From: Pseudomonas cichorii
GTDB taxonomy: Bacteria > Pseudomonadota > Gammaproteobacteria > Pseudomonadales > Pseudomonadaceae
Direction: 5' to 3'
Assembly: GCF_018343775.1 (NCBI RefSeq)
Contig: NZ_CP074349.1
Span: 5,198,001 to 5,262,000, forward strand
Length of the DNA: 64,000 nt
The notes under the pieces were generated by a model. It was not told the DNA's origin, searched no databases, and saw nothing but the letters and a program-made list of their open reading frames with translations. Both the position numbers and the translations under genes were made by a program. Shown piece by piece: positions 47,810 through 64,000 of this stretch (its first letter is position 1; the number at the start of each line of letters is the position of its first letter).

Positions 47810-48457
47810 ATGGAATTCAACCCCCTAGACTTCATCCTGCACCTCGATGTGTATCTCGACATGCTGGTAGACAACTACGGCACCTGGATCTACGCCATCC
47901 TGTTCTTGGTGATTTTCTGTGAGACAGGGTTGGTCATCATGCCCTTCCTGCCTGGCGACTCGCTGCTGTTCATCGCGGGTGCAGTAGCAGCCGGTGGCGG
48001 CATGGACCCGGTTCTGCTGGGCGGGCTTCTGATGCTGGCAGCCATATTGGGCGACAGCACCAACTACATCATCGGGCGAACCGCCGGAGAGAAGCTGTTC
48101 AACAACCCGGACTCGAAAGTCTTCCGCCGCGACTACCTGATTCGCACTCAGGTGTTCTACGCACGCCATGGCGGCAAGACCGTGACACTGGCGCGCTTCC
48201 TGCCGATCATTCGTACCTTCGCGCCCTTCGTCGCGGGCGTTGGCCGGATGAACTACCTGCGCTTCCTGGGCTTCAGCGTGCTGGGCTCGATCCTGTGGGT
48301 CGGCAGTCTGGTCACGCTGGGGGTCTATTTCGGCAATGTGCCTTTTATCAAGCAAAACCTGACACTGCTGGTGCTGGTGATCATTCTGATTTCCCTGCTG
48401 CCCATGATCATCGGCCTGATCCGCAGTCGCACAGGCCGCTCGGCGGACGCACGCTGA
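47810..48457 (+). CDS. DedA family membrane protein
   Basis: From ATG 47810 the protein has 215 residues with about five hydrophobic segments. It shows ETGLVIMPFLPGDSLLFIAGAVAA, GDSTNYIIGR and GGKTVTLARFLPIIRTFAPFVAGVGRM, the classical DedA motifs with their conserved Glu, Asp and Arg residues. DedA proteins support membrane potential and lipid-carrier recycling. It is a separate gene from the DedA-PAP2 fusion. TATAAT at 47735-47740 is a likely -10. mtfA follows after three bases. Confidence 0.92.
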   Translation: MEFNPLDFILHLDVYLDMLVDNYGTWIYAILFLVIFCETGLVIMPFLPGDSLLFIAGAVAAGGGMDPVLLGGLLMLAAILGDSTNYIIGRTAGEKLFNNPDSKVFRRDYLIRTQVFYARHGGKTVTLARFLPIIRTFAPFVAGVGRMNYLRFLGFSVLGSILWVGSLVTLGVYFGNVPFIKQNLTLLVLVIILISLLPMIIGLIRSRTGRSADAR

Positions 48458-48460
48458 GCC

Positions 48461-49273
48461 ATGTGGTCTTTCAGTAACTGGCGCAGGCAGCGCACGCTGG
48501 CCAAAAACCCCGTCGCCCCCGAAATGTGGGCACGGGTGCGCCAGCGGCTGCCGATTCTGGACGGTTTGAGCGACGCGCAGGATCAAGCCCTGCGCAACGC
48601 CTGCGTACTGTTCCTGCAAGCCAAACACCTGACGGCCCTGCCCGGCGTAGAACTGGATGATGAACAGCGGCTGTTTCTTGCGGCCCAGGCCCAGTTGCCG
48701 CTGCTCAACCTCGAGGACCTGAACTGGTATCAGGGTTTTCATGAAATCGTCCTGTACCCCGGCGACTTCATCAGCCCACAACGCCATCGCGATGCCAGCG
48801 GCATCGAACATGAATGGGATGGCGAACACAGCGGCGAGGCCTGGCAACAAGGCCCGGTGATTCTGGCATGGCCGGGCGTGCTGTCCAGTGGCGACTGGGA
48901 TGCCTATAACCTGGTCATCCACGAACTGGCGCACAAACTCGACATGCTCAATGGCGATGCCAACGGCCTGCCGCCGCTGCACGCAGACATGCGCATCAGC
49001 GAGTGGGCCAGCGTCATGCAAAACGCCTACGACGATCTCAACCGGCAACTGGACAACGATCCAGACATCGAAACGGTCATCGACCCTTACGCCGCCGAAG
49101 ACCCTGCCGAATTCTTCGCCGTGACCAGCGAGTACTTTTTCAGCGCGCCCGACCTGCTGCACGACACCTACCCCGAGGTCTATGAGCAACTGAAGGCCTT
49201 TTACCGCCAGGACACCCTGGCACGCCTGGAGGCCCTGCAAAAGGGCGACACCGCGTCTCAAAGCCAGCACTGA
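48461..49273 (+). CDS. mtfA: Zinc-dependent peptidase MtfA
   Basis: A 270-residue cytoplasmic protein with the gluzincin motif HELAH at 154-158, inside VIHELAHKLDMLNGDANG, and a third ligand Glu likely in DPAEFFAVTSEYFF. E. coli MtfA binds and inactivates the Mlc repressor and has weak peptidase activity; a Pseudomonas target is not known. It follows the dedA gene with a three-base gap. The start MWSFSNWRRQR fits family N-termini. Confidence 0.92.
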   Translation: MWSFSNWRRQRTLAKNPVAPEMWARVRQRLPILDGLSDAQDQALRNACVLFLQAKHLTALPGVELDDEQRLFLAAQAQLPLLNLEDLNWYQGFHEIVLYPGDFISPQRHRDASGIEHEWDGEHSGEAWQQGPVILAWPGVLSSGDWDAYNLVIHELAHKLDMLNGDANGLPPLHADMRISEWASVMQNAYDDLNRQLDNDPDIETVIDPYAAEDPAEFFAVTSEYFFSAPDLLHDTYPEVYEQLKAFYRQDTLARLEALQKGDTASQSQH

Positions 49274-49287
49274 TCCAACGCGATGCG

Positions 49288-49316
49288 TGTCAACGCCAAC
49301 AGAATATGCCTATAAT
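49288..49316 (+). promoter_or_regulatory. Likely sigma-70 promoter of ppa
   Basis: TGTCAA at 49288-49293, a 17-base spacer and TATAAT at 49311-49316 form a good sigma-70 type promoter 62 bases before the ppa ATG. The -35 is only a fair match to TTGACA. Confidence 0.55.
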
Positions 49317-49377
49317 CCGGCCCACTTTTTGGCGTTAATGCCAATATCTGTCTGGTCAACTACGGGGGCAAAACCCA

Positions 49378-49905
49378 ATGAGCTACAGCAAGATTCCGGC
49401 TGGTAAAGACCTGCCGAACGACATCTACGTCGCTATCGAAATCCCGGCCAACCACGCGCCGATCAAATACGAAATCGACAAAGAATCCGATTGCCTGTTC
49501 GTTGACCGTTTCATGGCCACCCCGATGTTCTACCCGGCCAACTACGGTTTCATCCCTAACACCCTGGCTGACGACGGTGACCCCCTCGACGTGCTGGTCG
49601 TAACCCCGTACCCGGTTGCTCCAGGTTCGGTCATCCGCGCTCGCCCGGTTGGCATCCTGAACATGACCGACGACGGCGGCGGCGATGCCAAGGTTATCGC
49701 TGTACCACACGACAAGCTGTCCCAGCTGTACGTCGACGTGAAAGAGTACACCGACCTGCCAGCCCTGCTGCTGGAACAGATCAAGCACTTCTTCGAGAAC
49801 TACAAGGATCTCGAAAAAGGCAAATGGGTGAAGATCGAAGGCTGGGGCAATGCTGACGCAGCACGCGCCGAGATCCTGAAATCGGTTGAAGCCTACAAAG
49901 GCTGA
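49378..49905 (+). CDS. ppa: Inorganic pyrophosphatase
   Basis: Soluble family I pyrophosphatase hydrolysing PPi to phosphate and so pulling biosynthetic reactions forward. The 175-residue protein has the metal-binding signature [10 protein letters not shown] near residue 65, preceded by [12 protein letters not shown] and followed by [10 protein letters not shown]. Length and motifs are standard. Codon use (AAC, GAC, CTG) is that of a highly expressed gene. A strong hairpin follows 16 bases after the stop. Confidence 0.97.
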
Positions 49906-49921
49906 TCACCCGCTTCCCCGC

Positions 49922-49949
49922 TTCGGAACACCTGACCGGGTGTTCCGAA
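49922..49949 (+). terminator. Hairpin after ppa
   Basis: TTCGGAACACC (49922-49932) pairs perfectly with GGTGTTCCGAA (49939-49949) across six bases. No T run follows, so it may be a processed 3' end or a weaker terminator. Confidence 0.65.
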
Positions 49950-50102
49950 CACCCTCTGCAAAACCCTCGCCTCCCCACTGCTCCTGCCTCGCACCCCCTC
50001 CAGAACATCATCAATAAACAAACGTATAAAAATACATCCCTCATTGTAAAACGCGATAAACAAACCGTGAGCGCCGCACAATCGGTTTAAAGCAGAACGT
50101 AG

Positions 50103-50121
50103 CGTTTATTTAAAATAAACG
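50103..50121. promoter_or_regulatory. Candidate operator 1 of the S24-type repressor
   Basis: A perfect palindrome CGTTTATT-TAA-AATAAACG, followed by GATTGCGGA. The words ATTTAAA and AAACGGATT recur in the second site 100 bases downstream, so both look like binding sites for the same dimer. Autoregulation is inferred. Confidence 0.5.
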
Positions 50122-50206
50122 GATTGCGGAACATGCCTACGCAACAACTGTTGTACCTGTAGGTCGCTAACCGTAAGCAATAAGGGAACAGCAGTATTTG
50201 AACACC

Positions 50207-50222
50207 CCGTTCATTTAAACGG
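50207..50222. promoter_or_regulatory. Candidate operator 2 of the S24-type repressor
   Basis: CCGTT and AACGG flank CATTTA; the sequence continues GGATTCGCGA, matching the right part of operator 1. It lies 28 bases before the repressor ATG, where bound protein would block transcription or translation start. Confidence 0.45.
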
Positions 50223-50249
50223 ATTCGCGACCGCCGTAAACTCGGCCTC

Positions 50250-50981
50250 ATGAATACATCAGGTGATCGACTACGCATCCTCCTGCGGGAGTGCCATCTT
50301 TCTGCGACGGACTTTGCAGCCAACCGCAAAGTCACGCCCCAGCACGTGAACAACTGGTTCAAACGCGGCGTACCCATGGCGCGGCTGGAAGAAGTGGCTG
50401 AACTACTGACCGTCAACGCCCGCTGGCTACGCACCGGCGAAGGCCCCAAACACCCGACAGACTCCGCCAACGAGAACAATGGCGGAGACACCCCGATTAC
50501 GCTCCACCAAGGCAGAAGCCTGCTGCGCGGCGATGTGGAAATTCAGATCTACAAGGAAATCGAATCCACCAACAGCATTGGCAAGACAGTACTGGCCGAA
50601 GCGCCCGGTCAGAAAATACGTTTGCCCATGCACGTGCTGCAAACCATGAACATCGACCCCAAGAACACCATGTGCGTCGCCATGATCGGCAACAGCATGG
50701 CCGACAAGATCCAGGACGGCTCACTGCTAGGCGTCAACCGCGACCTGACCCAGGTCATCGACGGCGAAATGTACGCCCTCGAACACGGCGGCATCCTGCG
50801 CGTGAGATACCTCTACCGCCTGCCCAACGGCGGCCTGCGCCTGCGCAGCCACAACAACAGCGAATACCCCGACGAACTCTTCAGCGCCGAAGAAATCGAG
50901 CGGGAAAACATCCGCATCCTGGGCTGGATATTCTGGTGGTCCACCCTAAACAGCCGCCGCAACGCCATGCTGCTGCGCTGA
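50250..50981 (+). CDS. Cro/CI-type repressor with S24 peptidase-like domain, catalytic Lys replaced
   Basis: A 243-residue regulator. An N-terminal helix-turn-helix (about 6-60, SATDFAANRKVTPQHVNNWFKRG) is joined by a Gly/Asp-rich linker to an S24 LexA-like domain (about 100-230). The nucleophile-type Ser149 is present in MIGNSMADKI. The lysine expected at the VKRL position is Arg186 in GGILRVRYL. I find no Ala-Gly or Cys-Gly cleavage pair in the linker. It therefore looks unable to self-cleave in the usual RecA-dependent way. No prophage genes adjoin it. It may be the orphan regulator of a lost phage or of the operon downstream (inference). Confidence 0.85.
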   Translation: MNTSGDRLRILLRECHLSATDFAANRKVTPQHVNNWFKRGVPMARLEEVAELLTVNARWLRTGEGPKHPTDSANENNGGDTPITLHQGRSLLRGDVEIQIYKEIESTNSIGKTVLAEAPGQKIRLPMHVLQTMNIDPKNTMCVAMIGNSMADKIQDGSLLGVNRDLTQVIDGEMYALEHGGILRVRYLYRLPNGGLRLRSHNNSEYPDELFSAEEIERENIRILGWIFWWSTLNSRRNAMLLR

Positions 50982-51066
50982 GTATCCGTATTTACACAGT
51001 GAGAATGTGTTTCAAGACTGGGCATTGGCGCAAAACACCAGTATCCTGTGGCCACCATTCGGCATA

Positions 51067-51227
51067 GGCCGCCCAGCGCGGCCCTTGCCACAGCAAGGCG
51101 AACGACACGTTCGGCTTGTTACCTTTTTAGCGTCCCTTGCGGATGCACCTGTTGAAGGCGATTGCGGTTTACCAAAAATAAACCAAGACCGTCCCCGAGA
51201 AGCCGGCCACAAGCCGGCTTTTTATTT
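51067..51227 (+). ncRNA. Candidate structured small RNA or 3' UTR with five hairpins
   Basis: In about 155 bases with no gene there are five stems: GGCCGC/GCGGCC (51067-51083), CTTGC/GCAAG (51084-51097), CGAACG/CGTTCG (51099-51113), GGTTTA/TAAACC (51166-51184) and the terminator stem AAGCCGGC/GCCGGCTT (51200-51220) followed by TTTATTT. The first three are nearly back to back. This is denser than expected from chance in a non-coding stretch. No start site is obvious, so it may be a small RNA or the end of the repressor message. No Rfam family is recognised. Confidence 0.4.
51200..51220 (+). terminator. Intrinsic terminator
   Basis: AAGCCGGC (51200-51207), loop CACAA, GCCGGCTT (51213-51220), then TTTATTTG. 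Eight pairs and a T-rich tail make a good rho-independent terminator. It isolates the toxin operon from the repressor. Confidence 0.85.
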
Positions 51228-51367
51228 GCTTGTGAAAAGTCAGACGCCTGCGCCGGGCAGCCAAAGTCCAGAGATATGCACGTCTTGAAAGCGGAACAGA
51301 GAAATCGCTTTGGGCTAATCCCGAATCGGGTTATTCAGATTTCCGGACCATCAAACGGCGCACCCAA

Positions 51368-51446
51368 GTGAAAACCATCCACAACACCCGCTACCAAGCC
51401 CTGCTCCAGCTTTTGCTGGAGGCACGCGAACGGGGGTTGGAGGGTA
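51368..51446 (+). pseudogene. 5' remnant of an XRE-family regulator gene
   Basis: From GTG 51368 the frame reads MKTIHNTRYQALLQLLLEARERG, the N-terminus of a common Pseudomonas XRE regulator. In intact relatives this continues into the helix-turn-helix (GLTQ...). Here the similarity stops after about 23 residues and the frame closes at 51472 after 34 codons. The break falls where the Mrr-like sequence begins, so a deletion joined two genes. Confidence 0.5.
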
Positions 51447-51680
51447 CCAGGTTTCACGGCACACGCAGCTGACTTAGCTAAATCGGTGGACAGGGGGATT
51501 GTGTTGGTGGATGACACACGACTGGTGCATCTGATGATGGATCATGAAGTAGGTGTTACATCGCGGCTGTTACGGTTGCTGGCGCTGGATCGTGATTATT
51601 TTGACGACGTGAGAGATCGGTTTTGGGCAAACCTGCCACCGCCTCTGCAACACTTTCGGCTCAAAATAATGGCACACTAG
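51447..51680 (+). pseudogene. 3' remnant of an mrr-type restriction endonuclease gene
   Basis: The frame reads GFTAHAADLAKSVDRGIVLVDD, then TRLVHLMMDHEVGV and LDRDYFDDV, ending with TAG at 51678-51680. This matches the C-terminal end of the Mrr catalytic domain (pattern GxFTTxxFxxxAxxxA, IVLIDGxxLxxLMIEHxVGV). The PD-(D/E)XK active site upstream is missing. The 64-codon frame from GTG 51486 would be the only translatable part and is not expected to be functional. Confidence 0.65.
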
Positions 51681-51766
51681 AATCACGAAGTACGCCCGAC
51701 TTGGAAGGTCGCTGTTAACGCGCAGAAGAGATAGGGCTAAAGCGGGTTTAGATAGTTGTGCAGGTC

Positions 51767-51773
51767 AAGGAGG
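51767..51773 (+). promoter_or_regulatory. Strong ribosome-binding site of the darT-like gene
   Basis: AAGGAGG, a near-perfect anti-Shine-Dalgarno match, lies five bases before ATG 51779 and fixes that start over the in-frame GTG at 51758. Confidence 0.8.
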
Positions 51774-51778
51774 CCACA

Positions 51779-52360
51779 ATGCCAGACATCAGAAATATCA
51801 AGGAACAAAAGCTTCTATACCATCTCACTTCGGTTGAAAACCTTGATGGCATTTTCCAGGCAGGCTTAAAGCCTCGTGCTGAACTCACCGATTTCAAAGA
51901 TGTAGCTGACAGTGAGATTCTGAAGAAGCGTAAAACCCTTGAGCTTGACAGCTATGTGCCCTTTCACTGGTTCGCTGCAAATCCATTTGACGGAAGTGTG
52001 CAACGCAATAACCCTGATGTGAAATTCGTCCTGATCTCCGTATACAGGTCCACGGCGCAAAAAAACGGTTGGAAAGTCATTCCTCGCCACCCTCTGGCAA
52101 ACGATTCAATCCAGTTACTCGATTACGACGAGGGTTTCGAAGCCATCGACTGGGAAGTCATGAACAGTCGCGAGTATCACGACGCGCACTGCAAAAGCAT
52201 CTGCATGGCGGAATGTTTGGCGCCTGGCGTTGTGAAACCAAACGCTTTCTTCAAAATATTCACGCCTAGCGAGGAGATCGAAGCGCTCTGCGTGGCTAAA
52301 ATGCGCGAGGCAGGTGTTAATGTACTCACCGGCGCGAATCAGAGAATGTTTTATCAATGA
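51779..52360 (+). CDS. DarT-like (DUF4433) ADP-ribosyltransferase, first gene of the operon
   Basis: A 193-residue cytoplasmic protein. It has the DarT/DUF4433 layout: LLYHLTSVENLDGIFQAGL with His15, ILKKRKTLELDSYVPFHWFA with Arg51, and a C-terminal helix ICMAECLAPG with Glu145. These align with the His-Arg-Glu set of DarT (His18, Arg54, Glu166 in the next gene). The middle (SVYRSTAQKNGWKVIPRHPLA) differs from canonical DarT, so it belongs to a separate branch. Its TGA overlaps the darT ATG by four bases (ATGA). It probably modifies nucleic acid with ADP-ribose from NAD, or senses or assists DarT; the target is unknown. The neighbourhood is AT-rich relative to the core. Confidence 0.75.
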   Translation: MPDIRNIKEQKLLYHLTSVENLDGIFQAGLKPRAELTDFKDVADSEILKKRKTLELDSYVPFHWFAANPFDGSVQRNNPDVKFVLISVYRSTAQKNGWKVIPRHPLANDSIQLLDYDEGFEAIDWEVMNSREYHDAHCKSICMAECLAPGVVKPNAFFKIFTPSEEIEALCVAKMREAGVNVLTGANQRMFYQ

Positions 52361-53001
52361 ACTACACCAGTCTGAATCCAGAGAAGGCTCTGATTTGGCG
52401 TATCGTCCACCGCGATAACCTGCCTTGGATTCTGGACAACGGCCTGCATTGCGCCAGTTCGGATGTGCAAGCACCGCAATATGTAAATATTGGTAACGCT
52501 GACTTGATCGATAAACGCCGATCTCGCGATGTACCAATTGCTCCAATGGGTGTGTTGGCTGACTACGTGCCCTTCTACTTCACCCCCTTCTCTGTGATGA
52601 TGAAAAATATTCATTCCGGGTGGAGCGTTCAGCAGCGCAGCAATGACGAGATTGTGATTCTGGTATCCAGCCTGCACCGCGTCGAACAGCTTGGCCTACC
52701 GTTCGTCTTCACAAACGCACATGCCTACCCGGATTGGACAAACTATTACAGCGATCTGGCGCATCTCAGCGAGATCGACTGGCCTATCCTTCAGCGGCGC
52801 GACTTCAAACGCGATCCTGATGACCCTCGAAAGATGGAGCGCTATCAGGCCGAAGCGCTGATTCACCACCACCTACCGATTACAGGACTCCTTGGCATCA
52901 TGTGCTACACCGATGCAATGAAAGAACGCATAGAGCAAGACGTGGTCGCTAGAGGCCTGACGTTGTCTGTTCATGCGCGTCCGGGATGGTATTTCCAATG
53001 A
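52357..53001 (+). CDS. darT: DarT toxin, DNA ADP-ribosyltransferase
   Basis: A 214-residue DUF4433 protein. DarT uses NAD to attach ADP-ribose to bases in single-stranded DNA, which blocks replication; DarTG systems act as toxin-antitoxin and phage-defence modules. Visible: [16 protein letters not shown] (His18), [14 protein letters not shown] (Arg54-Arg57), [16 protein letters not shown] and [15 protein letters not shown], with catalytic Glu166. Both ends overlap neighbours by ATGA. Spacing and order (toxin then antitoxin) are those of known darTG loci. The thymidine-type (DarT2) or guanine-type (DarT1) specificity cannot be told safely from the sequence alone. Confidence 0.9.
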
Positions 53002-54086
53002 TCAGATTCACTCAAGGCAACCTTCTGGAAGCCAAAACCGAAGCCCTCGTCAATACAGTGAATACCGTAGGCGTAATGGGCAAAGGTATCGCCCTGATGT
53101 TCAAAGAGCGCTTTGCGGAGAATTACCGCCTCTATTCGGCTGCCTGCAAGGCTGGCGAGGTAGAAACAGGCAAAGTTCACGTGACCGCAGTCAATGAGCT
53201 GGAAGGCCCTCGCTGGATCGTAAACTTCCCAACCAAACGTCACTGGCGATCCCCTTCGCAGATGCAGTGGATAACCGAAGGCTTACACGATCTACGTCGC
53301 TTTTTGATTGAAAACCATGTTAAGTCCGTGGCGGTTCCTCCGCTAGGTGCAGGGAACGGTGGCTTGAAATGGCCAGAAGTTCGTGAGCAGATCGTTGATG
53401 CTTTGAGTGATCTGGACGTCGATGTGCTGGTATTCGAGCCATCCAGTCAGTATCTGAATGTCGCCAAACGTAGCGGAGTGGAAAAGCTCACGCCTGCTCG
53501 CGCACTCATTGCCGAACTGGTTCGACGTTACTGGGTTTTAGGTATGGAATGCAGCCTGCTTGAGATTCAGAAGCTGGCTTGGTTCTTAGAGCGAGCCATT
53601 AAAAATCTGCCGGGCACCAAAAACCCGCTGGATCTCAAGTTCGTCGCCCATAAATACGGGCCGTATGCCAACCGATTGGAACACCTGCTCGACAATCTGG
53701 ACGGCAGCTATCTGCATTGCGACAAACGCATCAGTGATGCAGATATCAGTGATGTGATCTGGTTTGACCAAGACCGTAAAGCTTTTCTGCAAACCTATCT
53801 CAAAACAGAAGCTAGGGAGTATTCCCAAGCTCTGGAACTGACCGCCGAACTGATCGATGGCTTTGAGTCACCGTTCGGCATGGAGCTGTTGGCAACGGTT
53901 GATTGGTTGCTCAGTCAGGAAGAAGTTTCCCCAACCGTTCCTACCGTGCGCGAAGCGTTGCGGCATTGGGATGGCGGAACTGGTGCTGCTGCTCGTAAAA
54001 GCAAGCTGTTCGATGATCAGGCGATTGATATTGCGCTCAAACGGCTTACCTCCAGTAGCTTCAGCTCGGCAGTAGTTAACTGCTAA
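52998..54086 (+). CDS. darG: DarG antitoxin, macrodomain ADP-ribosylglycohydrolase
   Basis: From ATG 52998 the protein has 362 residues. Residues 1-155 are a macrodomain: [28 protein letters not shown], with Asn22 in the NTVNT loop, NFPTKRHWR with Lys80 and [10 protein letters not shown]. Lys80 matches the catalytic lysine position known for Thermus DarG. It removes ADP-ribose from DNA. Residues about 165-362 form the second domain ([35 protein letters not shown]), which in other DarG proteins binds and inhibits DarT directly. It must neutralise both transferases, or only one, of the operon. A GAAA-loop hairpin follows the stop. Confidence 0.92.
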
Positions 54087-54104
54087 TCGATGCCCAGTGT
54101 TTAT

Positions 54105-54124
54105 ACAGGCTGGAAACAGCCTGT
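54105..54124 (+). terminator. Hairpin after darG
   Basis: ACAGGCTG, GAAA loop, CAGCCTGT: a perfect eight-pair stem with a stable tetraloop 18 bases past the darG stop, followed by CATAAAGCTTT. A probable 3' end of the operon. Confidence 0.65.
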
Positions 54125-54228
54125 CATAAAGCTTTAATGTGATCGAGGATATCGGAAGGGGAGTGGGGTGGATCCTTATAGTACTTGTTGCAAATAGGCT
54201 GGCCATTTGACCAGCTCACACTGCCGGT

Positions 54229-54552
54229 CTAATTTCCTATTCTTCCCACATACTGACTCCGCTTCACCCTCACCGGACAAAGCTCAAGACCAAACGGCTT
54301 GAACACCGCATTCATCGACTTGATCGTCTGATTACCTTCTTCATGCTCAATGTGCGCCAAGGTACGAATCGAAATTTTGCACATTTTCGCAAAGAGGCGC
54401 TGATCCATTATGGCCACCATTGTTCGGAGCATCACTACAGCCTGGCCCATGGTAATTTCGCCATGCCCCAGCTTGCTCTCAATGAAGCGAATGAGCTCTT
54501 CCCGTGTCATTGCGCTGAAATCATGGCCTCTCATAGCGACATTTGAACTCAT
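54229..54552 (-). CDS. XRE-family (antitoxin-like) regulator
   Basis: A 107-residue protein. An N-terminal helical part (MTREELIRFIESKLGHGEITMGQAVVML) precedes a helix-turn-helix (about 52-95: FAKMCKISIRTLAHIEHEEGNQTIKSMNAVFKPFGLEL). The HTH resembles antitoxins of type II pairs. Its ATG overlaps the TGA of the interrupted upstream frame (ATGA), which implies that the two were co-translated. It converges on darG. A toxin partner, if any, has decayed. Confidence 0.75.
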   Translation of the reverse strand: MSSNVAMRGHDFSAMTREELIRFIESKLGHGEITMGQAVVMLRTMVAIMDQRLFAKMCKISIRTLAHIEHEEGNQTIKSMNAVFKPFGLELCPVRVKRSQYVGRIGN

Positions 54553-54800
54553 AGAACACCCAAGGCTTGCATCCGGTCTTTGAGCTTGGCCAGCGAGATA
54601 CTGGGGTGGCTCCAGATTGCCGTCGGAAAATCTGACTTAAGGATTTCATGAAGGTGAAGAAACAGCTTGGCGTCCTCCCTGCTCATGCACATAGAACACG
54701 CTCAAAGGAAACCTTCCGTCGAATCGCGAACGGTGAGATGAAAAGAGTCACGCCAGTAGCCCTCATCGAGGTTTGGGGTTGTGAGCTGCAAAGCGCTCAT
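54549..54800 (-). pseudogene. Small gene interrupted by an in-frame TGA
   Basis: One frame of 83 codons runs from ATG 54800 to TGA 54549, broken by a TGA at 54704-54702. The first part is MSALQLTTPNLDEGYWRDSF plus 12 residues; the second, after the stop, includes MSREDAKLFLHLHEILK and ends KDRMQALGVL. Just at the break the next frame reads FPLSVFYVHE, so one or two small indels near 54690-54710 are as likely as a nonsense change. ATG at 54686 or 54692 could still give a 45-47 residue product overlapping the XRE gene. I do not recognise the family. Confidence 0.5.
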
Positions 54801-54848
54801 CTGCACTAGATTGCAGATTCGGCGACAATGATCGCCACAAACCAGCTT

Positions 54849-55220
54849 TTATTTATCGACGGAAACCTCATCCACCCCAAGCCGCCTCCGCCGCGCAACC
54901 AACGCCCGCCGAAACGAAATCTCCGCACACTCCACAAACAACCGCGCCATATGATTAAGCCCCTCTTCCTCGCCTTCACTGCCCACGACAAAATCAAAAC
55001 CCAGCGCACGCTTGTTCTGGTCAGGCAGTTCTTCCCAACTGTTCATCAGGTAGGCGTACAGGGCGCTGACGATTTTTTGCTCGCTCAGTGGCTCATGGGA
55101 TAGGCGAGGTGGGCTGGCAAGCATGTGACGCCTTCGGAGAAAGCCGCACTTCTTGCAGATGGCTTGCGAGGATGAAAAGCGATGTTTCGGGTAACGGACA
55201 GGTGAGGTTTTGATATTCAT
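54849..55220 (-). CDS. Hypothetical protein, 123 residues
   Basis: From ATG 55220 (start MNIKTSPVRYPKHRF); an earlier start at 55292 is less likely. It has a basic N-terminus with one CKKC pair (about residues 22-25), a helical middle (IVSALYAYLMNSWEELP), an acidic stretch (GSEGEEEG) and a basic end (RRALVARRRRLG). No signal peptide. It lies between the XRE pair and the RTX gene on the same strand. No family recognised; it may be a small regulatory or nucleic-acid-binding protein, which is a guess. Confidence 0.5.
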   Translation of the reverse strand: MNIKTSPVRYPKHRFSSSQAICKKCGFLRRRHMLASPPRLSHEPLSEQKIVSALYAYLMNSWEELPDQNKRALGFDFVVGSEGEEEGLNHMARLFVECAEISFRRALVARRRRLGVDEVSVDK

Positions 55221-55340
55221 GAAAGGTTCCGGCCTTGATGGGTCATACGAGATACCCGTCATTTTTGGACGCAAACCTGTCAATGAACACACGCTATGGC
55301 GTGCGTTCAGCGATTTTTACTTCGATTGGATCAAGAGCAA

Positions 55341-55358
55341 CCGCGCCCAAAGGCGCGG
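55341..55358 (-). terminator. Terminator of the RTX gene
   Basis: On the minus strand CCGCGCC pairs with GGCGCGG across a four-base loop, followed by TTGCTCTT, 13 bases past the RTX stop at 55371. It also ends any transcript before the hypothetical gene. Confidence 0.65.
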
Positions 55359-55370
55359 CTGCTTCCACCC

Positions 55371-58300
55371 TTACTGCCAGTTGGCAGCAATCACTGCGTT
55401 CAACGAGGCCTGGTAGTTTTCCGACAGTTTCACTTCTCCTGGTGCAGGAGGTGCGAAAGCCGCCATGGCTTGTACCATTTGGTCAACCTGACTGGCCATC
55501 AGGACCTTGCCATCCGCCGTGCGGAATTGCTCGATCTGCTGGGCATCCTCCCAAGTGCCCTCGCCCCAGAACGACCATTTGGATACCGTCACTTTGTCGC
55601 TCGTACCGATGACGCCGACTTCCAGATCCCAGCCATTTTTGCTGAACCACAGTTGGTCGGCAGCAATACCGCTCCCAAACTGCAGCACGTCAGTGTTGGC
55701 ATCCGGATCAAAGTCGTCGATGACGTCCTGGCCGCCACCGCGCTCGAACTGGTAGAGGTCATTACCACGGTCGCCATACAGCCGGTCATTGCCCGTACCG
55801 CCGATGAGAGTGTCAGCGCCTGCGCCTCCGTTCAGCTCATCATCCCCGGCACCGCCCGACAGTATGTCGTTGCCGCCAAGACCATAGAGTTTGTCGTTGC
55901 CTGCAAGGCCACTGAGCGAATCGGCCACAGCATCATCGCCATAAAGCGCGTCATTGCCCTGGGTGGACGTGCCGTTGCTCATCGTCTTGATGGTGCTGGC
56001 ATTCCAGGTGGTCCCGTCGGCGAACTGGATCTGTTCGATCAGGTTCGCGGTATTGGAGAACCATCCGGAAACCGTCAGCCTGTCGCTTGTGCCGGCAATG
56101 CCGACATACAGATCGTTCAGGCTACGAGTGAGCTGGATATCGGCAGGTTTGAGGCCTTCCGCAAGCTTGATCACGTCCAGGTTGCCGGCCGTATTGTCGT
56201 AGTCGCTTATCCAGTCCTGCCCGGCACCGCGATAGAACAGGTAGGTGTCGTTGCCTGCATCGCCATACAAGCTGTCGTCACCGGCACCGCCATCGAGGAT
56301 GTCCGCTCCGGCTCCGCCATAGAGCTTGTCTTTGCCAGCGCCACCGTTGAGGGTGTCGTTGCCTGACAAGCCGTAAAGGCTGTCGTCACCGCCCAGCCCG
56401 TTGAGAACATCGGCAACGGACTCTTCACCTTGCAGGGTATCGTTGCCTTCGCTCGCCACGCCTTTGACCATGGCTTTGAGGGCCGTTGCATCCCAGACCG
56501 TGCCATCCACGAACTGGACTTGCTCGATCTGCGAGTCGGTGGAGTAGAACCAGTCACGAACGGTGATTTTGTCCGAAGTGCCGATGATCGCCAGTTCGAG
56601 ATTGTCGCCCACGCGCGAAGCCTTGATATCGCCCGGGCTGATGCCTTGTGCCAGCTTGATCACGTCGATATTGCCGGAGGTCCAGTCACGGTCCGAGATC
56701 TGATCCTGGCCACCGCCACGCTGGAACAGGTAGATGTCGTTGCTCGAGCCGCCATACAGCGAGTCGTTGCCTGCTCCGCCATCCAGCGTATCGACGCCCG
56801 CTCCGCCATCGAGCATGTCATCGCCAGCACCGCCAATGAGCACATCGTTACCGGCCTGTCCGTACAGCTGATCATTGCCGCCAAGCCCGTCGATCTGCTC
56901 GCCCGTCTCGTCACCATAAATCGTATCGGCCGCTTCGCTGGCCACGACCACCGACAAGCGCTTGAGGTCCGCGACAGACCAGACGGTCCCGTCCGCGAAC
57001 TCGACGCGCTCCACTTGATAATTGGAGCTGGTGTAGTCGTAGATTTTCATCCAGTCGTTCGTGCCCTTGATGGAGAGCACGATATCCGTCCTGTCACGCT
57101 TGACGATGACATCGCCAGGAGTGATGCCGGACGCGACTTTGATGGTGTCGACATTGCCCGTGGTGGAGTCGAACTCGTTGATCGTGTCCTGGCCCATGCC
57201 GCGATAGAAAAGGTAAGTGTCATTGCCGCGAGATCCGCTCAGGGAGTCGTTGCCGGCACCGCCATCGAGAGTGTCATTACCGTCGCCGCCATCGAGGTAG
57301 TCGTTGTCGGCTCCACCATTGAGGGTGTCGTTGCCGCTTTCGCCGTACAGCGTGTCTCTACCGGCACCACCATTGAGTTGGTCGTTGCCAGCATCACCGT
57401 AGAGCCTGTCATCGCCATTGAGCCCATCCAGTACATCGGCTCCAACGTCGCCATACAAGGTATCGGCCGAATCACTGGCCACTCCCCGGGTCATGGCTTT
57501 GAGGGCATCGATATCCCAGACCGTGCCATCGGCAAATTCGACACGCTCCACCTGATAGTTGGTGCTGTTGAAGAAGGTGATCGACATTTTATCTGTCGTT
57601 CCCTTGATCGAGAGATGCAGGTAGTTGCCGTCACGATTCAGAATCACATCGGCTGGAGCGATATCGGCAGCGACCTTGATGGTGTCGACATTACCCACAG
57701 TCCCATCGAAGTCAGTGATGGTGTCCTGCCCCATGCCGCGGTAGAAGCGGTAGGTATCATTGCCTGCATCACCCGACAGTCTGTCATTGCCCGCACCACC
57801 ATCCAGCGTGTCGTTGCCATCACCGCCATAAAGCCAGTCGACGCCATCACCACCGTTCAGTACGTCGTTGCCAGCCCTGCCGTACAGGGTGTCGTCGCCG
57901 CTCAGCCCGTTGATGGTGTTGGCCAGCGCATCGCCATTGAGGTAGTCACCGCTCTGGGTGCCGGTGATCAAGCCGGTCTGCTCGCCGACAACGATGTCGA
58001 ACACATCACTGACCACCGCACCTGCACGGTCCACGGCCGAAACCTTGACCGAGACGGTTCCCTGGCTTCCAGGCGTGCCGCTGAAGGTGCGAGTGGCCGC
58101 ATCGAACGTCAGCCAGGCTGGCAACGCCTGACCGTCGGCAGACTGCGCGGTAATGTTCAATATGTCACCGGCATCCACATCAGTGAATGTCGCTGCCGGT
58201 AGGGCAAAGTTCAGGAGTGTGCCTGCGGTTGCAGCCTGATCGACAATGGCCTTGGCCAGGACCGGTGCATCGTTGGTATTGCTGATCCGCACGTCAAAGC

Positions 58301-61300
58301 TGTCGCTGACGGACAGGCCGGCCTTGTCGGTCGCGGTGACGCGAATCGACAGGTTACCCACAGCGCTGTTGTCCGGCGTGCCACGGAAGGTACGGGTGGC
58401 AGCATCGAAACTCAGCCAGGCTGGCAGAGGGTTGCCATCAGCCAGGGTAGCGTTCAGTTTCAGGGCATCACCGCTGTCCGCATCGACAAAGGCGTTGGGA
58501 GCCAGGGTCAGGACAAAGGCGCTGTCTTCGGCCACGTTCTGGTCGGCAATCGCCTGCGCCAGGGTTGGAGCACGGTTGGCCTGGGTCGCCAGGGTTGCAG
58601 TGTTCCAGACCGTACCGTTGGCGAACTCGATGCGCTCGATGCTGTGACCACGGGCTGCGGTCCAGCCGGAAATGATCTGCTGACCATCGTTCAGGCGCAG
58701 CACCATGCCTTGCGCGGAGTGATCGACAGCGACGTCGCTTGCATTGATGCCCGCTTCAAACACGATGGTGTCAACGCCACCGCTGGCATCCAGGTCTTCG
58801 TTGATCGTGTCCTGGCCATGACCGACGCCGAACACGTAGCGGTCATTGCCTTTGCCACCCTGCAGGAAGTCGTCGCCAGCACCGCCGTACAGGCGGTTGT
58901 CGTGTTCGTTGCCGAACAGTTCGTTGGCCTGGGCGTTACCCGTGGCATTCAAGGCGGAACCGGACAAGGTCAGGCTCTCGACATTCGCCGCCAGGCTGTA
59001 GTCGACCGTGGAAATGACCTTGTCATTACCCGCGTCGGCATCCTCCATGACCACATCGCCGATGTGATCGACGAAGTAGGTGTCATTGCCCAGGCCACCG
59101 ATCATCAGGTCTGCACCTTGGGCACCATCAAGACGGTTATCGCCGAGATTGCCGCGCAGGATGTTGTCGGCGCTGTTGCCCGTAGCGTTGATGTTGGCGC
59201 TGCCGGTCAGGTTCAGGTTTTCCAGGTTGCTGGCCAGCGTGAAGGAAACCGAGGCATTGACCGTGTCCGTGCCCTGGCCTTGGGACTCGACGACCCGGTC
59301 GGAACCGTCGTCGACCACATAGGTGTCGTCACCCAGGCCGCCGATCAGCACATCGGAACCTCCGGCACCGTCCAGCACGTTGTTGGCGCTGTTGCCCACA
59401 ATGCGGTTGGCCAGTTCATTGCCGGTGCCATTGATAGCCGCATTGCCCAACAGTTGCAGGGATTCGACTTCACTGGCCAAGGTATGACTGACACTGGACT
59501 TGACCAGGTCATAGCCACCGCCCACCACTTCCTTGATCACGTCACCGACGTTGTCGACGATATAGGTGTCGTCGCCTGTCCGTCCTTCGAGAACGTCCGC
59601 ACCGGCACCGCCATCGAGGGTATTGCCGCCGGCGTCGCCGATCAGCAGATCGTTGGCATCAGTACCGCTAAGCAGCACTTTGGGCTGTGCAACGGCCTGA
59701 CCGAAAATGAAGTTGGCGGCGGACAGTTGATTGGCGGTGACACCTTTGAGGGTCAGGTATTGAGTGCCACTGGCCATCGCTCCCAACCAGACTCTCAGGT
59801 ATTGCTCGCCATCCACCGTCACTGAACTGAAGTTCAGTTCGGCAAAGCTGTGTACTGCACGGATCTGTGACAGGTCGATTTTTTCGGCAGGATTGGCCAC
59901 CTCGAAATCGTCGATCAGGTTGGCCATGATGCCTTGGGAAGCACTCGCCCTGAGGTCTTCGACCACAACAAAACGATCATTCCCGGCACCGCCAGCCACC
60001 GAGGCTCCGGTGTGCGAGGCTATACCGCCGAGGTTGATGTTCGGAGCCAGCAGCGTGGTGGTCGCGTAGTCGGCGACGCTCTGGTCGCCTTCAAGGTAGA
60101 GAACGTCGTTACCGGCATCGCCACCGAGATAATCCTGTCCGGCACCGCCGTACAGCACGTCATCGCCAGCGCCACCGCGCACCACATCATTGCCTTCGCC
60201 ACCGTTCAGGGTGTCGTTGCCGCCGACACTCGATGATGTGGAGCTTTCACCGACCAGCACATCATCACCCAGACCACCGTTGATCACATCGGCTCCCGTG
60301 CCACCGAAGACGCGCTCGCCGCCATCGTTGGCCCAGTACAGAACACCATTGGTGGTGTCCGGCAGAATCCGCTCAGTCACGGTGCCATCAAGCCCGAAAC
60401 CAAAGCCGGAGTAACGCTCCAGACGGCTCAGGCTTACACCTTCGGGTACATGCACGAAGCTGCTCAGCGTCAGGCCCTGGGACTGCACATTTTTAAGCAC
60501 CAGGACTTGCCCGTCATCCAGCGTCAACCGCGTGTCCGCACCTTGCTGGCTGATGCCCATCGTCGAATACACGTCCGGGCCGAAACCTGACAGAACGATT
60601 CGATCGGTGCCGATGACGAAGTCGGTCAGGGTATCGACGTCACCCGCGTTCTTGTCGATCACAAAGTAGTCGGTATCGGCACCGCCAGTCAGGGTGTCAT
60701 TGCCCTGTCCTGCGATCAGCGTATCGATGCCTGCGCCGCCCGACAGCAGGTCGTCGCCACGCCCACCCGAGAGGTGGTTATCCGCAGCGTTGCCGGTCAG
60801 CGAGTCGCCAAACTCGCCGCCGATCAGGTTTTCGATCTGGCCTGGATTGGTAATCGTCAACCGGGCACCGGCCAGGGTCGCCTGACCGTTGGAAAGGTCG
60901 ATGACGCTGGCGCTGGCAATCGCCGCGGCATTGATCGTGTCTACGCCACCATCGGTATCGTTGAGCACATTGCGTCCGCCTGCCGCGGCCAGCTGTGCAT
61001 ATTCATTGGTATACACATATTGGTCATCGGACGTACCGCCCTTGCCATAGACGTTCATGCTCCAGCTGTTGAGTGTGCCGGTGTCGCCGGTGACCGTATC
61101 GATGACTTGCAGCGTCCAGTTGCCCTGCGCCGTTTCACCCCGCAGAAGCGCCGTATCGAAAACGTAATTCAAGGTGGAGCTGCCGGCGAAGTCGGCGTCA
61201 CCACGCTCACTCGCCGCGCTGCCAGGTGCCTTGCCCGGACGGTTCATCAGAATGGATTCAGTACCGGACGGCGAGATCAGCTTGAGGATCAGGTCACCGG

Positions 61301-64000
61301 GTCGGGAATGCGTCAGGCTGACTTTGACTTCAACATGCTCGACAGAAATACCGGCGTTACCCATGGTCAGGGAATGGCTGATTCCTGCGCCCAGTCCATC
61401 AGTGATTGCACGGTTGAGGGTGCCGGAGTCCAGAGGCTGGTTCAGGCTGAACTCATTAGCGAAGGTCTGCTGGGTATTCCAGGTTTCGGCCAGACGAACC
61501 GCCGCGCGGGCATCGACTTCGCCATAACCATAGTCGTGGCTGACGTGCATGCCGCCGCCGTTCCAGTTCTGGCTTCCGTTTTCCTGCCAGGAGGTATCAG
61601 GGTCGGCTACCTTGCGAGCCGAAAGCGCCAGGATCTGCTGGACGTCGCGATACCCCAGCTCAGGGTTGGCTTCGAGCACCAGTGCAACGATGCCGGAGAC
61701 GATCGGCGCGGCAAAACTGGTGCCTTGCGAAACGCTGGTGTCGGCACCGAACGTGGAGCCATTGTCGTTCTGCACCAGACGCGAAGTGGAGGTCACGTTC
61801 GAGCCCGGCGCACTGACCAGAATGCTTGCGCCCGGACTGGAGAACGGCTGCCCACCGAACTGCAATGCACCCAGGTCAGTGGTGGCATTGATTGCGCCAA
61901 CCACGATACTGCTGCGGCTGTTGGAGACGTTCGAGTAGTTGGTGTTCCCGCCTATCTGCCGGTCGTTGCCGCCCGCCGTGACAATCACGGTCCCCAGACC
62001 ATCGCGCCCCTCTTGCAAGGCCTGACGATGGGGTGTCGGCAGCAGTCCCAGTTCGGCCGGAGAAAACTTCAGATCGAAGGGAATGGCACTCCCCCAACTG
62101 TTGTTCACCACGTCATATTCGTGCATGTGGGACATGGTGCTGAAGTCGTCTTTGTTGACCCAGTAACCGGCAATCGTGGCGTCATAAGCCACCCCCACAC
62201 TGCCTTCGCCATTGCGGGAGGCGACCATTACACCGGCCACCAGCGTGGCGTGATCGCTGAAGACGCCGCCACTGCCCTCGCCCGCCATCTGTCCCGGCGT
62301 GGCATTGGCCAGCCAGTTCTTGTCGATGTTGTCTTTCAGGTCGGCGTGACGGTAATCGAGCACTTCCTTGGTCGTGCCGAAAGGACTGGTGGTTTCGATC
62401 TGGGCAATCCTGACGCCCTTGCCGGTGTAATCCTTCCAGACCGGAAGAATATTGGCCTGGGACAGATACCACTGATCGGTCGCCAGCGGATCGTCAGGCA
62501 GGTCCGCAGTCTTGAGGTACACCGCAGCGCGCATTGTCGCGCTTTCACCGGTTCCCATGCTGATAACCGTACCGGCCTCATTGCCCTTGGCGTCGGCAAC
62601 GGTGTACTTGAAGCCCATGATGCCGGTAAAGGTTGCATCAGGCGTAAACAGCACATCGCCAGCCTGGGTCACGCTGGCCGTACCACCCACGACATCGAAC
62701 AGTCCGGTGATGTGCAGCGCATCATGCTGCCAGTCGATGTCGTTCTGCAGCAGTTGCTCCTTGCCGATCAGATGTGCACTGGTACGCTCGAAAGCCGCAC
62801 CGGCCTTGTCGTTGCTCAGGACATCCTTGACCAGCAGAGGGTTCTCGATCCCTTCGCTGGTAGCGCTCGGAATCTCGACCAGCTTGAGGTTCTTGAAGTT
62901 GATCTTTTCGATGTTCTGCAGGAAATCGGTACCGTCGCGCCCTGCAACGGTGTCGCTGATCCAGACACCTTCTGCCGTTCGTGTCAGACGATAGTCGGCA
63001 AAGTCGCCGGACAGCTCGACGACGTCCAGGCCGTCACCACCGTCGATCACGTCATCGCCCGCACCACCGATCAGCACATCGTCGCCGGCACCGCCGTTAA
63101 GGTTGTCGTCATCCTGACCGCCGTCGATGAGGTCGTTGCCCAGGCCGCCTTGAATACGGTCATTGCCACGGTGCCCGCGCAATACATCGTTGCCGGCTCC
63201 GCCCAGAATGACGTCGTTACCATCCTCACCCGACAACGCATCATTGGCGTACCCACCGATGAGTACATCATCGCCGTCGCCGCCGCGCATATAAACCGTG
63301 CTGGACCCGCCGCCGATGAAGGTGTCATTGCCACGACTACCCTGAGCAATTTCCACACCGGCATCTGCCAGGTTGAGATAAACACCTTTATCGCCCAGAA
63401 CCTGAACGATATCGGTGCCATCTCCTCCATGGATATTCTCGGACAGGTCTTCGCCATCAATCAGTAGAACATCATCTCCGGCACCACCATAGAACGTATC
63501 GCTACCCTGGCCACCGGCCAGCCAGTTGGTCTGGGCATCGCCTTGCAGCACATCATTGCCCGAGCCGCCAGTCGCATTGTTTACGCCCTTCGATGCCACA
63601 TCGATGTGCTCACCCGTTGTGGAAGAAGAGGAATAACCACTCACAGGAGAGACGTTACCTCCACCCTGTGTAGAGATAACAGTGCCTGTGCCGTTTGCGG
63701 TAAAGACATGACCATTAGGGTTGGCCAGAAAGTTGGCGGCAATGGCTTCCTTGCTCACGCCGTTCTGAACAAAGGTTCCTCGTGCGAGAACTTCGTTACC
63801 GTCACGCACTTCGCCGCTTTGAGCCACACTGTTCAAGTTGATCCGGGTAATACCCAACTCTGCAAATGACTTCAGTTCGCTCTTTTCATTGGCGTCCACT
63901 GAACCATTACCATTGGCATCATCCCAGCTCTTTCCATCGTGGTTGGCGTCGACCCAGACTTTGACACTCGACCAGGCATCATCACGGTTATCGAAAACAC
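55371..64000 (-). CDS. Giant RTX protein with subtilisin and P domains (5' end outside window)
   Basis: About 2875 codons are visible and the frame is open at the window edge; a GTG at 63899 is internal. In protein order: acidic DANHDGK/DANGNGSVDANE calcium loops (63990-63890); RTX nonapeptide repeats GGxGxD (63590-62980); a cadherin-like segment (62870-62510); an S8 subtilase domain (62505-61500) with His codon at 62252-62250 and Ser at 61718-61716 (GTSFAAP) but Glu at 62396-62394 where the catalytic Asp is expected; a proprotein-convertase P domain (61440-61050); a long RTX block (61000-58880); two CADG-type Ig-like domains (58580-57960); and RTX-related modules to the end, closing NAVIAANWQ. 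It should leave by a type I secretion system, not encoded here, and fold on external calcium. A surface or secreted protease/adhesin role is inferred. Confidence 0.9.
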   Translation of the reverse strand, partial: VFDNRDDAWSSVKVWVDANHDGKSWDDANGNGSVDANEKSELKSFAELGITRINLNSVAQSGEVRDGNEVLARGTFVQNGVSKEAIAANFLANPNGHVFTANGTGTVISTQGGGNVSPVSGYSSSSTTGEHIDVASKGVNNATGGSGNDVLQGDAQTNWLAGGQGSDTFYGGAGDDVLLIDGEDLSENIHGGDGTDIVQVLGDKGVYLNLADAGVEIAQGSRGNDTFIGGGSSTVYMRGGDGDDVLIGGYANDALSGEDGNDVILGGAGNDVLRGHRGNDRIQGGLGNDLIDGGQDDDNLNGGAGDDVLIGGAGDDVIDGGDGLDVVELSGDFADYRLTRTAEGVWISDTVAGRDGTDFLQNIEKINFKNLKLVEIPSATSEGIENPLLVKDVLSNDKAGAAFERTSAHLIGKEQLLQNDIDWQHDALHITGLFDVVGGTASVTQAGDVLFTPDATFTGIMGFKYTVADAKGNEAGTVISMGTGESATMRAAVYLKTADLPDDPLATDQWYLSQANILPVWKDYTGKGVRIAQIETTSPFGTTKEVLDYRHADLKDNIDKNWLANATPGQMAGEGSGGVFSDHATLVAGVMVASRNGEGSVGVAYDATIAGYWVNKDDFSTMSHMHEYDVVNNSWGSAIPFDLKFSPAELGLLPTPHRQALQEGRDGLGTVIVTAGGNDRQIGGNTNYSNVSNSRSSIVVGAINATTDLGALQFGGQPFSSPGASILVSAPGSNVTSTSRLVQNDNGSTFGADTSVSQGTSFAAPIVSGIVALVLEANPELGYRDVQQILALSARKVADPDTSWQENGSQNWNGGGMHVSHDYGYGEVDARAAVRLAETWNTQQTFANEFSLNQPLDSGTLNRAITDGLGAGISHSLTMGNAGISVEHVEVKVSLTHSRPGDLILKLISPSGTESILMNRPGKAPGSAASERGDADFAGSSTLNYVFDTALLRGETAQGNWTLQVIDTVTGDTGTLNSWSMNVYGKGGTSDDQYVYTNEYAQLAAAGGRNVLNDTDGGVDTINAAAIASASVIDLSNGQATLAGARLTITNPGQIENLIGGEFGDSLTGNAADNHLSGGRGDDLLSGGAGIDTLIAGQGNDTLTGGADTDYFVIDKNAGDVDTLTDFVIGTDRIVLSGFGPDVYSTMGISQQGADTRLTLDDGQVLVLKNVQSQGLTLSSFVHVPEGVSLSRLERYSGFGFGLDGTVTERILPDTTNGVLYWANDGGERVFGGTGADVINGGLGDDVLVGESSTSSSVGGNDTLNGGEGNDVVRGGAGDDVLYGGAGQDYLGGDAGNDVLYLEGDQSVADYATTTLLAPNINLGGIASHTGASVAGGAGNDRFVVVEDLRASASQGIMANLIDDFEVANPAEKIDLSQIRAVHSFAELNFSSVTVDGEQYLRVWLGAMASGTQYLTLKGVTANQLSAANFIFGQAVAQPKVLLSGTDANDLLIGDAGGNTLDGGAGADVLEGRTGDDTYIVDNVGDVIKEVVGGGYDLVKSSVSHTLASEVESLQLLGNAAINGTGNELANRIVGNSANNVLDGAGGSDVLIGGLGDDTYVVDDGSDRVVESQGQGTDTVNASVSFTLASNLENLNLTGSANINATGNSADNILRGNLGDNRLDGAQGADLMIGGLGNDTYFVDHIGDVVMEDADAGNDKVISTVDYSLAANVESLTLSGSALNATGNAQANELFGNEHDNRLYGGAGDDFLQGGKGNDRYVFGVGHGQDTINEDLDASGGVDTIVFEAGINASDVAVDHSAQGMVLRLNDGQQIISGWTAARGHSIERIEFANGTVWNTATLATQANRAPTLAQAIADQNVAEDSAFVLTLAPNAFVDADSGDALKLNATLADGNPLPAWLSFDAATRTFRGTPDNSAVGNLSIRVTATDKAGLSVSDSFDVRISNTNDAPVLAKAIVDQAATAGTLLNFALPAATFTDVDAGDILNITAQSADGQALPAWLTFDAATRTFSGTPGSQGTVSVKVSAVDRAGAVVSDVFDIVVGEQTGLITGTQSGDYLNGDALANTINGLSGDDTLYGRAGNDVLNGGDGVDWLYGGDGNDTLDGGAGNDRLSGDAGNDTYRFYRGMGQDTITDFDGTVGNVDTIKVAADIAPADVILNRDGNYLHLSIKGTTDKMSITFFNSTNYQVERVEFADGTVWDIDALKAMTRGVASDSADTLYGDVGADVLDGLNGDDRLYGDAGNDQLNGGAGRDTLYGESGNDTLNGGADNDYLDGGDGNDTLDGGAGNDSLSGSRGNDTYLFYRGMGQDTINEFDSTTGNVDTIKVASGITPGDVIVKRDRTDIVLSIKGTNDWMKIYDYTSSNYQVERVEFADGTVWSVADLKRLSVVVASEAADTIYGDETGEQIDGLGGNDQLYGQAGNDVLIGGAGDDMLDGGAGVDTLDGGAGNDSLYGGSSNDIYLFQRGGGQDQISDRDWTSGNIDVIKLAQGISPGDIKASRVGDNLELAIIGTSDKITVRDWFYSTDSQIEQVQFVDGTVWDATALKAMVKGVASEGNDTLQGEESVADVLNGLGGDDSLYGLSGNDTLNGGAGKDKLYGGAGADILDGGAGDDSLYGDAGNDTYLFYRGAGQDWISDYDNTAGNLDVIKLAEGLKPADIQLTRSLNDLYVGIAGTSDRLTVSGWFSNTANLIEQIQFADGTTWNASTIKTMSNGTSTQGNDALYGDDAVADSLSGLAGNDKLYGLGGNDILSGGAGDDELNGGAGADTLIGGTGNDRLYGDRGNDLYQFERGGGQDVIDDFDPDANTDVLQFGSGIAADQLWFSKNGWDLEVGVIGTSDKVTVSKWSFWGEGTWEDAQQIEQFRTADGKVLMASQVDQMVQAMAAFAPPAPGEVKLSENYQASLNAVIAANWQ
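55720..58850 (-). repeat. Six haemolysin-type calcium-binding-related modules in the RTX protein
   Basis: Six copies of a module keyed by GxGQDxIxDxD, about 40 residues, then GTSDxxxV and IExxxFADGTVW, with RTX nonapeptides between. Key motifs lie near 58820, 57740, 57200, 56720, 56230 and 55740; the last five recur every 480-540 bases. The third and second copies are closest to each other, consistent with recent tandem duplication. Confidence 0.8.

Follow-up and report, generated by a model that had tools for sequence, protein, structure and literature searches.

What would a toxin-antitoxin locus do with two ADP-ribosyltransferases and one antitoxin? This question is raised by three genes of Pseudomonas cichorii in a 64,000-nucleotide stretch of contig NZ_CP074349.1 (assembly GCF_018343775.1, positions 5,198,001 to 5,262,000), hereafter the window, whose host genome is a single contig of 5.98 Mb. 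Two genes of the DarT family, A and B, precede a single darG, gene C; the product of gene A is here called DT1. A preliminary description of the locus held that known darTG loci have one transferase, and the DarTG literature covered agrees with it. DarTG is described with one DarT in the available parts of PMC5179494, PMC9967889, PMC12255303 and PMC11543638, and a tandem DarT goes unmentioned in those of PMC9503650, PMC11833690, PMC8790059, PMC5122569, PMC8832971, PMC9519451 and PMC7003065. Likewise, the titles, abstract openings and passages searched contain no account of a darG preceded by two darT genes, a scope to which preprints, supplements and the work of LeRoux et al. on DarTG in phage defence do not belong. 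Our analysis indicates that the locus is probably a tripartite DarTG-type operon, in which a catalytically competent DT1 is the second toxin and both toxins are neutralised by the single DarG. Three roles had been offered for the extra protein, and the best fit among them is that of a second toxin under the control of the one DarG.

The three-gene operon

The sequence bears out the three open reading frames described earlier, with 193 amino acids for gene A, and the ATGA overlap at both gene junctions. The features of the operon are as follows.

51767..51773, plus strand: Shine-Dalgarno sequence AAGGAGG, 5 nt ahead of the gene A ATG (read from the sequence)
51779..52360, plus strand: gene A, DT1, divergent DarT-family ADP-ribosyltransferase of 193 aa, with His15, Arg51, His63, Phe70, His104 and Glu145
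52357..52360, plus strand: ATGA, where the start of gene B overlaps the stop of gene A (read from the sequence)
52357..53001, plus strand: gene B, DarT2-type transferase of 214 aa, with Arg15 (at the motif-His position), Arg54, Tyr74, His122 and Glu166
52998..53001, plus strand: ATGA, where the start of gene C overlaps the stop of gene B (read from the sequence)
52998..54086, plus strand: gene C, DarG antitoxin of 362 aa (NCBIfam antitoxin_DarG and PADLOC DarG matches)
52998..53444, plus strand: DarG macrodomain, residues 1-149, catalytic Lys80
53487..54056, plus strand: DarG C-terminal domain, counterpart of the DarT-binding domain, residues 164-353

The family assignments of the preliminary description also stand. 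Genes A and B match Pfam DarT (PF14487) with 63.7 and 191.7 bits (cut-off 22.5), and gene C matches NCBIfam antitoxin_DarG with 438.5 bits (cut-off 250) and PADLOC DarG with 412.1 bits. Gene C, which could also start at an in-frame ATG at 52986 to give 366 aa, matches the solved DarG macrodomain 5m31 (E 2.4e-51) and the C-terminal part of Mycobacterium tuberculosis DarG in its DarT complex (7yk3_B, E 7.6e-15). Its Lys80 is invariant across 32 aligned DarGs, and its C-terminal domain resembles the DarT-binding domain. Gene B reaches 239.9 bits with PADLOC DarT, passes the cut-off of NCBIfam toxin_DarT (NF048013; 257.4 bits, cut-off 150) and matches 7omv in the PDB (E 6.6e-27).

Both transferases had been credited with a His, Arg and Glu set. 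This is right for gene A (His15, Arg51, Glu145) and for Arg54 and Glu166 of gene B, each present in 94/94 DarT2 rows; it does not hold for His18 of gene B, a separate residue conserved in 93 of these rows. The position of the motif His is codon 15 (52399-52401), an Arg, so that gene B reads Arg15-Tyr74-Glu166 and misses the full ARTD H-Y-E motif. Arg occupies this position in 85 of the 94 DarT2 rows and His in nine, and the departure of gene B is therefore a trait of its subclade. The motif His is found at this site in other DarT2s, in DarT1 and in DT1. In two further loci (L085, L054), the DarT2 beside DT1 carries Asn instead of the motif Tyr.

DT1 is a third DarT subfamily

The predicted structure of DT1 has the DarT fold, in agreement with the earlier assignment, and its catalytic residues are conserved: motif His15, catalytic Arg51 and catalytic Glu145 are present in all 87 aligned DT1 rows. 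DT1 scores 109.8 bits with PADLOC DarT. The nearest solved structures are DarT2s, and the best PDB sequence match of the DT1 profile is 7omu (E 1.1e-13), the DarTG of Thermosipho africanus, in which a DarT domain and a macrodomain share one chain; that system differs from the operon in being one protein with one transferase. A fold search against viral models gave weak matches only and was left unused.

In a quick tree of 104 rows, DT1 forms its own clade outside DarT2 with a Shimodaira-Hasegawa-like approximate likelihood ratio test (SH-aLRT) support of 100, and the two proteins share 18% identity over the profile alignment. A recent duplication of DarT2 is thereby ruled out as the origin of DT1, which is a third DarT subfamily beside the two described ones, linked to DarG in many bacteria. 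The records examined name it 'DarT ssDNA thymidine ADP-ribosyltransferase family protein', a label that hides the subfamily and implies a thymidine specificity of which we found no test. The nearest named relatives of the P. cichorii DT1 are from Pseudomonas, at 96% (a Pseudomonas metagenome-assembled genome) and 95% (P. frederiksbergensis AS1). Another DarT clade with a DarG-type partner, here DX, was found in L137, L138, L139, L183 and L185; the four DX rows included in the tree retain the Tyr and carry an Asn at the base-coordinating position.

DT1 could also be a hitch-hiking or decaying duplicate without a selected function. It is the most often broken of the three genes, and it diverges faster than its neighbours, with a mean distance of 0.738 across 56 trios versus 0.473 for DarT2 and 0.409 for DarG. 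However, the ratio of nonsynonymous to synonymous substitution rates (dN/dS) of DT1 is far under 1, and DT1 is thus under purifying selection. The invariance of the catalytic residues, the linkage in many proteobacterial families with recurrent DarG pairing, and the separate clade likewise speak against a functionless gene, a reading that we regard as very improbable.

Conservation of the gene order

Conserved linkage had been suggested as a test of the trio, and our search across genomes found the trio repeatedly. A scan with the DT1 alignment and two peptide patterns yielded 96 listed loci, comprising at least 80 from GTDB species genomes and 16 from IMG/VR. DarG is adjacent to DT1 in all 96, and the largest gap between the two reading frames (669 bases) has DarT2 in between. 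The order DT1-DarT2-DarG occurs in 71 loci, some with gene damage, which takes the arrangement beyond chance; one of them (L024) has an extra DarT2-like piece downstream. In 28 of these 71 trios, a stop overlaps a possible start (ATGA, GTGA or TTGA) at both junctions. The remaining arrangements include L054, in which DT1 is convergent with a DarT2-DarG pair, and L066, with the order DarT2-DarG-DT1. Trio hosts include Pseudomonas, Marinomonas, Marinobacter, Dickeya, Vibrio, Acinetobacter, Massilia, Methylobacter and Insolitispirillum, among others.

DT1 is accompanied by DarG without DarT2 in 23 of the 96 loci, 21 as DT1-DarG pairs (L076 is such a pair, its trio call having come from a cross-hit) and two as convergent genes. 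These loci bear directly on the possibility that DT1 serves DarT2 as a modulator or accessory subunit (a heteromer partner, an extra brake or a specificity factor) and is no toxin alone. A modulator of DarT, one of the options offered earlier, is a poor fit to them, and the invariant catalytic residues of DT1 also argue against it. In its favour, intact DarT2 accompanies intact DT1 in 24/24 loci of the Pseudomonas census described below. That same census has DarT2 without intact DT1 in nine of 38 loci, and in L069, a Pseudomonas locus outside it, an open DT1 lies beside a frameshifted DarT2. We consider the accessory role improbable, and that of a necessary brake on DarT2 is ruled out by the persistence of DarT2 without intact DT1.

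Trios are rare. The DT1 profile (E 1e-10) matched three of 276 genomes of the class, and the matches are the window's own locus, one further trio (L210) and one protein other than DT1 (L211). The phylum sample of 397 genomes gave PF14487 matches in 29; trios were confined to Pseudomonas itself, and two other genomes have DT1 with DarG, convergent in L187 and as a pair in L188. In E. coli, 10 of 5426 genomes carry a DT1-DarG pair. In the one examined, the pair belongs to a P2-like prophage and is flanked by the replication endonuclease and portal genes, a site described as an antiviral hotspot in the available part of PMC9122126. DT1 is also present on three Cytobacillus plasmids, and in the one examined a macrodomain gene follows it.

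Suggested order of gene loss in Pseudomonas

A PF14487 search of 398 Pseudomonas genomes matched 57. A DarT2-type match was found in 39 of them, one being a canonical DarT2-DarG pair (G331) and 38 having a trio-type DarT2 or DarG. The other 18 were left out (nine with a NADAR partner, four helicase-DarT-ADP-ribosylglycohydrolase operons, three DX, one DarT-HD fusion and one weak match). The 38 trio-type loci divide into 24 with a full-length DT1, eight with a damaged one and six in which none was found. DarT2 is intact in 9 of the 14 loci without intact DT1 (one, G043, cut by a contig end); in the other five (G343, G282, G023, G297, G115), both toxin genes have decayed and DarG remains. None of the 38 has an intact DT1 beside a broken DarT2. 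A C-terminal remnant of DT1 ahead of DarT2 in G160 indicates that DT1 was lost there by deletion. In a partly overlapping set of loci, DT1 alone of the three genes is broken in L020, L029, L030, L065, L074, L078, L079, L082, L084 and L086, and the reverse was seen once, in L069; open DT1 frames with poorly aligning ends (L057, L064, L081) were counted as not broken. These data suggest an order of loss with DT1 first, then DarT2 and DarG last, as expected if both transferases are toxins and DarG is their antitoxin.

Two side observations were made on damaged loci. DarG surviving the decay of both toxins carries the locus names L140, L150, L159, L160 and L161. In L120 (G004), DarG is frameshifted in the macrodomain beside an apparently intact DarT2, which is either an assembly error or a tolerated loss.

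Proposed mechanism and target

In our proposal, DT1 would be an NAD+ (nicotinamide adenine dinucleotide)-dependent ADP-ribosyltransferase and a second toxin beside DarT2. A single DarG would neutralise both, its C-terminal domain binding and blocking the transferases and its macrodomain stripping the attached ADP-ribose. The target of DT1 would most likely be thymine in single-stranded DNA, in a sequence context other than that of DarT2, and the likeliest benefit would be anti-phage defence with two writers, both of which a phage must escape. The alignments place His104, present in 87/87 DT1 rows, at the position of the thymine-coordinating His (H119) of DarT2. The corresponding residue of DarT1, the guanine-coordinating Asn (N104), is Asn in 10/10 DarT1 rows. 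Moreover, DarTG1 pairs the guanine ADP-ribosyltransferase DarT1 with a NADAR antitoxin, whereas the constant partner of DT1 is DarG, and one NADAR query (E <= 1e-5) found no NADAR partner of DT1 in the 96 listed loci. A DarT1-like guanine target is thus disfavoured, and the DarT2-type His, together with the constant pairing with DarG, makes thymine the more probable base.

DarTG2 combines the thymine ADP-ribosyltransferase DarT2 with a macrodomain DarG. Genes B and C pass the NCBIfam cut-offs of this system, and DT1 shares the fold, the Arg and Glu, the base-coordinating His and the DarG partner. DarTG2, however, has two genes and one toxin, against three genes, two transferases and one DarG here. 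CmdTAC, a toxin-antitoxin-chaperone defence system, also has three genes and a toxin with an ADP-ribosyltransferase-like domain, according to the part of PMC9519451 available, and differs in that its third gene is a chaperone instead of a second transferase.

Several observations weigh against our proposal. With NCBIfam DarT (NF048013), DT1 reaches 41.4 bits, below the cut-off of 150. Two pocket residues of DarT2 are replaced in 87/87 DT1 rows: His63 stands where the H-Y-E motif has its Tyr (Y71 in Thermus DarT), and Phe70 where DarT2 has the Met equivalent to M78. The base-coordinating position is Asn in 4 of the 94 DarT2 rows, which makes His104 a pointer and no proof. The nine Pseudomonas loci that keep DarT2 without intact DT1 indicate that DT1 is dispensable, and the phylum sample mostly shows DarT2-DarG with no DT1 in the fetched flank (L173-L178, L180-L182). 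Two such DarT2s (L178, L182) are basal in the subclade that holds the DarT2 of the trio. Identity between the trio DarG and the DarGs of DT1 pairs is only 26-33%, so that binding of DT1 by the trio DarG is something we infer, as we do the activity of DT1, its target base, the neutralisation by a shared DarG and the role in defence.

The His63/Phe70 pocket could also serve another chemistry, with DT1 a second toxin under DarG that acts on another base, RNA or a different molecule. The base-coordinating His kept in DT1, the macrodomain DarG partner in every listed locus and the DarT2s as nearest solved structures speak against this reading, which we judge unlikely. Only tentatively can we entertain a related, bolder claim, that DarT toxins have a third class of which DT1 is the founding member (H-H-E, with its own chemistry or target), that a dual-specificity DarG simultaneously restrains two different DNA- or RNA-modifying toxins and that an invading phage receives two distinct ADP-ribose lesions from one operon. 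A different target of DT1 would, if confirmed, widen the known range of ADP-ribosylation chemistry on nucleic acids. The trio itself offers a natural arrangement of two probable toxins and one antitoxin that lends itself to a direct test of DarG specificity.

DarG partners and evolution of the module

The DarG partners of three pairs (L064, L077, L087) score 273.7, 232.9 and 230.9 bits with NCBIfam DarG, so that one of three passes; the L087 partner reaches 269.8 bits with PADLOC DarG. Profile comparison divides the C-terminal domains of pair DarGs into two kinds. The first is related to that of the trio (probability 96.7, E 3.8e-10); the second is related to the first (96.3), with no direct relation to the trio's (0.3). 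A KLxxF...YGPYA stretch in the DarG C-terminal domain raised the idea of a likeness to Panacea, a promiscuous antitoxin domain, which we do not claim: the comparison gave E 0.0034 and a probability of 9.5% over 52 columns, and still lower probabilities for the three other DarG groups. Panacea is absent from the rows listed for the DarG model, but macrodomains fill that listing.

Of the 26 DarT2 rows in the tree that have a DT1 nearby, 23 group in a single subclade. The exceptions are L054, L066 and L085, which suggests that DarT2-DarG modules probably acquired DT1 on more than one occasion, and the basal position of L178 and L182 is consistent with a DarT2-DarG pair having gained DT1. Across the 56 trios, distances of DT1 correlate with those of the DarG C-terminal part (r 0.785) and of DarT2 (0.755), and the partial correlation with the DarG C-terminal part given DarT2 is 0.39. 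These values fit an operon travelling as a unit and are not proof of binding.

Neighbouring genes and other DarT arrangements

Promoter- and terminator-like sites in the locus show no excess over shuffled sequence, an Rfam search of 48000-56000 gave zero matches, and a tRNA search of the window found none. Upstream lies an S24-type repressor gene (50250-50981, plus strand; Pfam 70.2 bits). Many of the compared Pseudomonas loci have, upstream of their trio, matches to parts of this gene and of those preceding it, which indicates that the chromosomal site is often shared. A helix-turn-helix protein (54229-54552, minus strand) with a weak HipB-like antitoxin match (19.7 bits, cut-off 71.65) is convergent with the operon. 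The operon is also adjoined by a 2842-aa open reading frame (55371-63899, minus strand) with many GGxGxD-type repeats, RTX-like by eye.

Another operon, found in 6 of the 398 Pseudomonas genomes (L142 32-4345; L146, L147, L148, L151, L153), two of which are trio genomes, encodes a UvrD-like helicase, a DarT-family protein and an ADP-ribosylglycohydrolase. In L147, the DarT-family protein scores 66 bits with Pfam and the ADP-ribosylglycohydrolase 100.8 bits (PF03747); of two L147 proteins compared with PADLOC, the DarT part alone was matched, weakly. This operon looks like a DarT with a helicase and an eraser of the ADP-ribosylglycohydrolase type. Finally, L136 (489-3010, minus strand) encodes a 453-aa fusion of DarT with an HD domain, followed by a macrodomain protein.
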